Shown: positions 3,728 through 4,922 of the stretch, one piece after another
How the letters are laid out: each line of letters opens with the position of its first letter
Numbering within the stretch: the stretch's first letter is position 1
Assembly: GCA_021296345.1 (NCBI GenBank)
Contig: JAGWAN010000004.1
Span: 1-56,779, forward strand
Direction: 5' to 3'
DNA from: Acidimicrobiia bacterium
GTDB lineage: Bacteria > Actinomycetota > Acidimicrobiia > Spongiisociales > Spongiisociaceae
DNA: 56,779 nt
Program-made: the position numbers and the translations under genes
Notes under the pieces: generated by a model
What the model was told of the DNA's origin: nothing
Databases searched by the model: none
What the model saw: only the letters and a program-made list of their open reading frames with translations

Positions 3728-4276
3728 TCAGTCGGGGATCCAGGATTCGGTCTCGATGCCGAGACCGTCGGCGATCCGGTTCGCGTAGGCGAAGTAGCCG
3801 ACAACCTCCACTATGTCCAGGATGTCACGATCTGAGAAGCCGGCCGATCGCAGGTCTTCCACGTCAGCGTCATTCATCGCGCCCGGCGCCCTGGTCAGCT
3901 TGATCGCGAACCTGAGCATCGAATGCCGCTTGGGCGACAGGTCTGCGGTCGTCCAGTCCCGTTCGATCGCCTCGACAAGCTCGTTATCCTTGATCAGCAG
4001 GCGCAGACCGCGCCGGTGGTGGACAACTCAGTAGTGGCAATCGTTCTCGAGGCTCACGACCAGGGCGATGATCTCCCGCTCGACCTTGCGGAGCGTCGCG
4101 GTGCCGGCCATCGCCGATTCGTAGAGGCCCTGGTGAGCGGCCATGCCGCGGGGGTTCAGCGAGTGCACCGCCAGGACGTTGTCGACGCGCCCGTATACAC
4201 GATCGACAACTCGGGGATAGATCTCACCGAGTGCCCCGTCCCAGGAGTCGTCAGGTATGACTTCAATGCGTGCCAT
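3728..4276 (-). CDS. AhpD-like peroxidase-related protein, candidate selenoprotein (in-frame UGA as Sec83)
   Basis: Carboxymuconolactone decarboxylase/AhpD-fold protein of 182 residues when the in-frame TGA at 4030-4028 is read through. AhpD proteins are thiol oxidoreductases with a CxxC active site followed by a His; this subfamily is the 'peroxidase-related enzyme' group. Residues 1-82 run from MARIEVIPDD to ENDCHY. The TGA replaces the second Cys, giving C80-H-Y-U83, and the same frame continues VVHHRRGLRLL, matching the usual CxYCVxHHG pattern, to SAGFSDRDILDIVEVVGYF and NRIADGLGIE, the normal family C-terminus. No frameshift is needed, and the total length is normal for the family. A SECIS-like hairpin lies 13 bases after the TGA. 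The alternative is a pseudogene with one nonsense mutation, but the mutation would have to hit exactly the redox Cys. The start is the ATG at 4276; no strong ribosome site is seen. Confidence 0.8.
4000..4014 (-). promoter_or_regulatory. Bacterial SECIS-like hairpin downstream of the in-frame UGA
   Basis: On the minus strand the sequence GGCGC-GGTCT-GCGCC forms a perfect 5-bp stem with a 5-base loop. The loop GGUCU starts at base 19 after the UGA. The E. coli fdhF SECIS has the same GGUCUGC stretch, also at base 19 after its UGA; that comparison is from memory of the fdhF sequence. SelB binds such a minihelix to deliver Sec-tRNA. Pairing below the 5-bp stem is weak. Confidence 0.75.
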
Positions 4277-4383: not shown

Positions 4384-4722
4384 CTAGAAGAAGCCTACGC
4401 CGGGGGGAATGAAGTTTTGCGTGATTGTGATTGTGGTATGGGGCATGGTGGTCACCACGGTGATGGTGTAGCCGTGTACGGTGACACGATCGCCGCTGAC
4501 CAGGACGGGGTAGTCGTCGACCCGTCCGTCTCCTGAGTCGCCGACCACCTTCAATGGGAGTTCCCCGGTTCCGAGCCTCGCGTCGACTTTGTAGACCAGG
4601 ACACCCTCGGCCGCCAGTGCTGGGAAGGTCGTCGACCGACCGTCCGGAGCGACACAATCTCTGCCTTCGTCGTAGCCGATTCTCCGTCAGCTCTCGACAA
4701 CGATTACTTCTGACTCGGATAC
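4384..4722 (-). pseudogene. 3' fragment of a secreted M6-like protease gene
   Basis: Read on the minus strand, this stretch encodes VSESEVIVVES, an in-frame TGA, then RRIGYDEGRDC and a C-terminal domain with GVLVYKVDARLGTGELPL, PVLVSGDRVTVHGYTIT and a TAG stop at 4386-4384. It matches the C-terminus of the intact protein at 47072-49915 segment by segment (SETEVVVMES, RRQIGYDAG, GVLVYVVNSARSGG, PLLTDGKSVSVGSYTIT). The TGA stands where the relative has an Arg codon, so it is a simple CGA-to-TGA decay mutation. The 5' part of the gene, with signal peptide and catalytic domain, is missing. The fragment directly abuts the katG fragment. Confidence 0.75.
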
Positions 4723-4922
4723 CGGTCTCGCCACGCGTAGTCGAACCCTTCGCCCATGGGATCGATCAACGGCGGGTTCTTGTTCAACGGCCTCAGGTTC
4801 AACTGTTCCGGCCACCAGTGCTGATTCGCCAGCGAGCCCATCGCAGCGGGCATCTGGTGCGACACCGGACACTTGGCGTCCGATACGCCCTGGTCGGCGG
4901 CGGTGATGTCTTCGACAGTCAT
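4723..4922 (-). pseudogene. katG: 5' fragment of katG (catalase-peroxidase)
   Basis: The first 67 or so codons of a catalase-peroxidase. MTVEDITAADQG is followed by DAKCPVSHQM, NQHWWPEQLNLRPLNKN and DPMGEGFDYA, the conserved N-terminal leader of KatG (CPV, WWPnqLNL, NPMGe.FDYA). The homology stops just after FDYA and the frame ends at a TAA at 4704, so the whole haem domain (the WW-H active-site region) and the C-terminal domain are absent. A start codon and GAGGACT ribosome site are retained. The fragment is fused at about 4722 to the remnant of a protease gene, so it looks like the product of a deletion joining two decayed genes. A working KatG cannot be made from it. Confidence 0.75.

Follow-up and report, generated by a model that had tools for sequence, protein, structure and literature searches.

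An AhpD-like gene from an Acidimicrobiia bacterium very probably encodes a selenoprotein with a CxxU active site

Introduction

If an otherwise ordinary gene is interrupted by a TGA codon, is the gene broken, or does it encode selenocysteine (Sec)? We consider this question for an AhpD-like gene from an Acidimicrobiia bacterium. The gene lies in a stretch of DNA of 56,779 nucleotides (contig JAGWAN010000004.1 from assembly GCA_021296345.1), which we will call the window. A standard annotation would split this gene in two, yet it very probably encodes a working selenoprotein.

A single reading frame across an internal TGA

The AhpD-like gene is at positions 3728–4276 of the window, on the minus strand. 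The frame runs from MARIEVIPDD...ENDCHY through a TGA to VVHHRRGL...NRIADGLGIE...WIPD and ends at another TGA (3728–3730, minus strand), so that the read-through product has 182 residues, including one Sec. The terminal TGA acts as an ordinary stop, without a hairpin of the SECIS type after it. An earlier note on this DNA had described a gene that is open in one frame across a single TGA at 4030–4028, and these coordinates turned out to be exact. This is codon 83 of 182 and the sole internal TGA, and we did not see any other stop or any frameshift within the gene.

We assigned the protein to the AhpD-like family because of its profile matches and its predicted fold (see below). The read-through product matches the CMD family from Pfam (PF02627; 38.5 bits, with a cut-off of 23) across residues 45–105. 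It also matches TIGR01926 from NCBIfam (peroxidase-related enzyme) across residues 29–175, with 145.1 bits (E = 1.8e-42), which is above the curated cut-off of 81.8 bits. Because both matches span residues on both sides of the TGA, both sides belong to the same family, in agreement with the earlier note. The note had also placed the TGA at the second Cys of a CxxC redox pair, and this is what we see: the motif is C80-H-Y-U83, within NDC80-H-Y-U83-VVHH. The in-frame UGA (4028–4030, minus strand), a codon that is kept in relatives, would thus encode selenocysteine 83, at the second position of a CxxU pair.

The UGA codon is conserved

Relatives of the AhpD-like protein at 53% identity or above are present in 23 of 59 related genomes (including the gene's own genome). 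All 23 genes contain exactly one TGA, and it is at the same codon, so this TGA is more than chance. In a named collection with at least 571 relatives, the best 80 all have U at the position of codon 83. (Two of these 80 loci are on contigs of the same assembly, so they do not represent 80 genomes.) Most of the best 80 (55) are named as Acidimicrobiia, Acidimicrobiales, or Acidimicrobiaceae, and most of the others are from actinobacterial groups or are named only as "bacterium." One locus that is named as a Planctomycetaceae bacterium (L107) bears an otherwise actinobacterial AhpD-like gene, at 65% identity, which could reflect a mislabelled bin or a transfer.

Across the class, we found matches with E < 1e-80 in 48 of 296 genomes. 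One genome has two such matches, and all 49 contain one TGA inside (the position of the codon was checked in the genes that we fetched). The distribution of the gene is patchy even within its own genus: 3 of 10 genomes have no match, and one of those three is 84% complete.

The earlier note had suggested looking for both Cys-containing and UGA-containing relatives. The UGA-bearing relatives keep the UGA at the same codon, while Cys stands at this position in more distant, Cys-type paralogs. We did not find a Cys form of the AhpD-like clade among the close relatives that we examined, including the best 80 of at least 571. Overall, the gene has an in-frame UGA where homologs have Cys, and this UGA is conserved across species, as is expected for a bacterial selenoprotein. 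In a phylogenetic tree of 51 chosen proteins, the 25 members of the AhpD-like group form one clade (support of 96/96). A second AhpD group that also bears UGA is represented by 15 members, which share a branch (94/98), and three other proteins have long branches.

We also compared codons among eight close genes (28 pairs). The ratio of synonymous to nonsynonymous differences is 560:204 before the UGA and 588:356 after it, where these are raw counts of differing codon pairs and not corrected rates. Both halves of the gene look to be under constraint, the second half somewhat less so.

A conserved SECIS-type hairpin follows the UGA

In bacteria, SelB recognizes a hairpin (the SECIS element) just 3' of the UGA. 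The mRNA downstream of codon 83 reads GUUGUCCACCACC-GGCGC-GGUCU-GCGCC, and the last three segments form the core of a putative SECIS hairpin (4000–4014, minus strand). The apical loop, GGUCU (4005–4009), starts 18 nt after the UGA. The earlier note had proposed a search for a bacterial SECIS element, and we applied published constraints to the hairpin. As given in PMC13188914, these are a loop of 3–9 nt, an upper stem of 4–16 bp, a G in the first two positions of the loop, a distance of 16–37 nt from the UGA to the loop, and a minimum free energy of at most −7.5 kcal/mol. The hairpin agrees with every one of them: it has a 5-nt loop that begins with G, a 5-bp stem, a distance of 18 nt, and a minimum free energy of −9.7 kcal/mol (24-nt hairpin) or −12.2 kcal/mol (46 nt).

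We gathered 109 genes, of which 101 are distinct. Among the 101, the apical loop is GGUCU in 99 cases and GGGCU in the other two, and it always starts 18 nt after the UGA. The complete 5-bp core stem is present in 92 of the 101, as compared to a mean of 11.8 and a maximum of 21 under a null model that draws synonymous codons (1000 trials); in the other 9 genes, at least one of the five pairs is missing. The complete stem together with GGUCU is present in 90 of the 101 (null mean of 2.6 and maximum of 7 across 1000 synonymous resamplings). Because the 101 genes are related, these counts are not independent. Two additional pairs below the core stem are less well kept, and are standard in 86 and 57 of the 101 genes. 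One pair within the stem has been altered on both sides: it is G-C in 83 genes, G-U in 12, A-U in 3, and C-G in 2.

Synonymous sites are frozen at the hairpin. Among pairs of genes with the same residue, we computed the fraction with different (synonymous) codons. Codons +5 through +9 have fractions of 0.12, 0.14, 0.04, 0.02, and 0.29, as compared to 0.23–0.71 for the remaining codons between −15 and +25 (leaving out Trp).

The two strands of the window contain 1,262 TGA triplets, and codon 83 is the only one of these that has N18-GGNCT and a 5-bp stem after it. When we searched the bacterium's own genome for the hairpin with up to 3 mismatches, we obtained 15 matches: the AhpD-like gene with no mismatches, and 14 others with 3 mismatches each. 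A reversed control pattern gave 5 matches in the same genome.

The genome encodes the selenocysteine machinery

The bacterium's genome assembly is 2.83 Mb in 82 contigs (the window is contig 31) and is 94.95% complete. We found all four genes for selenocysteine incorporation in it: selB (313.6 bits, cut-off 242.25); selA, which directly adjoins selB (435.4 bits, cut-off 267.9); selD (371.2 bits, cut-off 125); and selC, or tRNA-Sec (76.6 bits, gathering score 47), which has the anticodon UCA and was called by ARAGORN as well. The absence of selB and selC, which the earlier note had named as grounds for giving up the selenoprotein, is thereby excluded. The selD gene itself bears an in-frame TGA, at SPGGGU.

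More broadly, selB is above the cut-off in 50 of the 59 related genomes. Among the 23 genomes with a relative of the AhpD-like gene, 20 have selB over the cut-off, and the exceptions are G012 (72% complete), G044 (56% complete), and G022, in which selB is in two pieces. Similarly, 20 of the 23 have a tRNA-Sec with at least 70 bits; the exceptions, from a search with stricter filters, are G012, G044, and G018 (which is listed as 100% complete). The cut-offs matter, because the control genomes match the sel genes at any score and few of them do so over the cut-off: among 14 control genomes, the number with any match was 14 for selB, 14 for selD, 14 for tRNA-Sec, and 4 for selA, and the number over the cut-off was 2, 2, 5, and 1.

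From established bacterial biology, SelD would form selenophosphate, SelA would convert Ser-tRNA-Sec to Sec-tRNA-Sec, and SelB would bind the hairpin just 3' of the UGA and bring Sec there.

Alternative explanations for the UGA

Could the TGA be a nonsense mutation that breaks an ordinary Cys-type AhpD gene, leaving a pseudogene? By the standard code, the frame is indeed cut in two, and the patchiness of the gene within its own genus might also suggest decay. However, all 23 relatives, and also the best 80 of at least 571 named loci, have a TGA at this catalytic codon. Moreover, the gene has no other stop or frameshift, synonymous differences predominate on both sides of the TGA, and synonymous sites within the hairpin are conserved. 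The earlier note would have abandoned its reading if close relatives showed a random nonsense mutation along with other decay, but the stop is not private to this genome and there is no decay around it. We consider a nonsense mutation to be refuted by the conservation of the TGA codon and of the hairpin, and its remaining probability is negligible.

An open frame across the UGA would also be expected if UGA were reassigned (e.g., to Trp or Gly) or were read through without selenium. But the AhpD-like gene itself ends in TGA, which argues against reassignment, as does the location of codon 83 at the place of the catalytic Cys in the Cys-type paralogs. Also, reassignment needs neither a SECIS-type hairpin nor the full Sec machinery, and both are present. 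Given the terminal TGA, the conservation, and the hairpin, we rejected reassignment, which seems very improbable, and the same observations led us to reject a frameshift. Instead, the sequence evidence indicates that the UGA at codon 83 almost certainly codes for Sec, and the AhpD-like gene very probably encodes a genuine selenoprotein.

Predicted fold and active site

We used AlphaFold2 with 19 aligned sequences, with Sec entered as Cys, and obtained a model with a pLDDT of 94.5. The predicted structure is all-helical and of the AhpD/CMD type. The best matches to this fold in PDB are AhpD-like "peroxidase-related" proteins, namely 2prr (TM score of 0.88) and also 2pfx, 3c1l, and 6k40. A sequence profile for the family matches 3c1l as well (E = 6.8e-40).

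In AhpD from Mycobacterium tuberculosis, the second Cys is more reactive than the first. The active-site region of the AhpD-like selenoprotein (4016–4075, minus strand) contains E68 (4073–4075), C80 (4037–4039), Y82, U83, and H87 (4016–4018), and these five residues are invariant in the 19 aligned sequences. Their spacing is that of the five-residue proton relay in PA0269, which is reported in PMC3141380 as Glu36, Cys48, Tyr50, Cys51, and His55. More generally, the protein fits the relay pattern Glu-x11-Cys-x-(His/Tyr)-Cys-x3-His, with Sec as the second Cys.

Genomic neighborhood

In the window, a gene for an MMPL transporter is downstream of the AhpD-like gene and a methyltransferase is upstream. 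In the flanks of 80 loci (up to 5 kb, and often shorter), the MMPL transporter was found in 3 and the methyltransferase in 1. We also clustered the open reading frames from these flanking regions. No cluster was present in more than 18 of the loci, so we did not see a conserved operon partner.

We noticed two other features near these genes. In the window, about 70 codons at 4707–4919 (minus strand) are similar to the N-terminus of catalase-peroxidase KatG and end in a stop codon. This is a short remnant: the match in NCBIfam (E = 3.7e-8) is far below the cut-off for the whole protein, PDB chains match with E = 3.7e-10, and we did not see the remainder of KatG between the remnant and the AhpD-like gene. 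And in 9 of the 80 loci (L105, L106, L116, L117, L121, L123, L131, L133, and L137), the AhpD-like gene adjoins another gene that runs divergently and has a CFYU motif; the UGA region of this other gene lies 812–818 nt upstream of the start of the AhpD-like gene. These loci would thus have a pair of adjacent genes that both likely encode selenoproteins.

Possible functions

We propose that the thiol of C80 and the selenol of U83 act as a redox pair, with a selenenylsulfide in the oxidized state, and that the Glu68-His87 relay activates this pair. The selenoprotein might act as a peroxidase in its own right, or it might be a reductase or adaptor for peroxiredoxins. Because we did not identify a conserved operon partner, the redox role rests on membership in the family, from which we consider a role in peroxide or thiol redox to be fairly likely.

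Alternatively, the Sec protein could catalyze another type of reaction, such as a reductive dehalogenation like that of the debrominase Bmp8 (PDB 6ohi). 6ohi does match the family's profile (E = 2.4e-5) and the predicted fold (TM score of 0.73), and the lack of an operon partner is compatible with this idea. On the other hand, the AhpD-like "peroxidase-related" structures 3c1l and 2prr match far better (by the profile and the fold, respectively), and the five-residue AhpD relay is invariant, which argues against a dehalogenase-type activity. We think that another reaction is unlikely.

Nine matches to the AhpC-TSA family are found in the bacterium's own genome, and 3 of these contain an in-frame TGA at their active sites. 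They are of the TRGU, UGC, and UETC types (G000:C20:22984-23349, C65:2926-3264, and C1:70232-70546; loci L191, L192, and L198), and from their sequences, they are likely to be further selenoproteins. We speculate, quite tentatively, that the AhpD clade of Acidimicrobiia is an obligate selenoprotein without a Cys form, and that it performs one step of a selenium-based peroxide defense together with these Sec-containing peroxiredoxin-like or thioredoxin-like proteins. If this were true, then a peroxidase and its reductase would both use Sec.

Relationship to known selenoproteins

Other UGA-bearing AhpD proteins occur in this class. The second UGA-bearing group in our tree includes proteins from genomes that are just about 1 Mb in size (family f12), and the four of these that we fetched have a TGA at CEYU (L152–L155, from G099, G084, G067, and G078). 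We found tRNA-Sec in all 8 of the ~1 Mb genomes of this class that we tested. These genomes are streamlined yet keep selenocysteine. Another AhpD-like protein (L030, from G028:C70) has a TGA within GGAPU and lacks the first Cys; it scores 84.2 bits against TIGR01926, as compared to the cut-off of 81.8.

The earlier note had stated that AhpD-like selenoproteins with CxxU were already reported from marine metagenomes, and two papers agree: in 2005, 27 such genes were described from the Sargasso Sea (PMC1088965), and "AhpD-like protein, TIGR01926, CxxU" (MCB9421940.1) is listed in a 2026 review that cites the 2005 paper (PMC13188914). Another report has 299 genes for "AhpD-like 1" (PMC2398784). 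Since this kind of protein is already published, the gene described here is a new member of a known family. The earlier note considered that a selenoprotein in this lineage would be noteworthy, and it overstated the novelty, as the CxxU family is in the literature and selB is common in related genomes. We did not find a report of selenoproteins from the Acidimicrobiia lineage in the open-licence literature, which does not prove that there is none. What is new here is the lineage with its Sec machinery, the conservation of the SECIS element, and the absence of a Cys form among the close relatives that we examined. A selenoprotein family that was defined from metagenomes is now tied to a bacterial class with the Sec machinery. 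Should a complete survey also fail to turn up a Cys form, this would inform the question of why Sec is retained in certain lineages.

How does the AhpD-like selenoprotein compare to characterized or annotated systems? The Cys-type, peroxidase-related AhpD structures (3c1l, 2pfx, 2prr, and 6k40) share its fold and are 31–39% identical in structural alignments, but 3c1l, 2pfx, and 6k40 have C-Y-C where it has Sec. The SECIS of E. coli's fdhF, which we fetched as a control, also has GGUCU as its apical loop, at the same distance of 18 nt after the UGA, but it belongs to another protein family and its stem has another sequence. With its strict 18-nt spacing and GGUCU loop, as in fdhF, the hairpin of the AhpD-like gene could be used to test how actinobacterial SelB recognizes its signal. 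The review (PMC13188914) equates NF041238, the AhpD-related CFYU(T) (seleno)protein, with "hypothetical protein 1" from the Sargasso Sea. NF041238 too has an AhpD domain with CxxU, and its motif is the one in the divergent neighbor at 9 of the 80 loci, but its model is longer (357 positions), and the AhpD-like gene scores just 43.1 bits against it, below the cut-off of 175, so it is not a member. The closest counterpart is the published AhpD-like CxxU selenoprotein. Going by its descriptions, it shares the AhpD-like family, TIGR01926, the CxxU motif, and a bacterial SECIS element downstream, and we see no essential difference. The descriptions that we consulted do not give a host lineage, and the protein is placed here in Acidimicrobiia, along with the Sec machinery.
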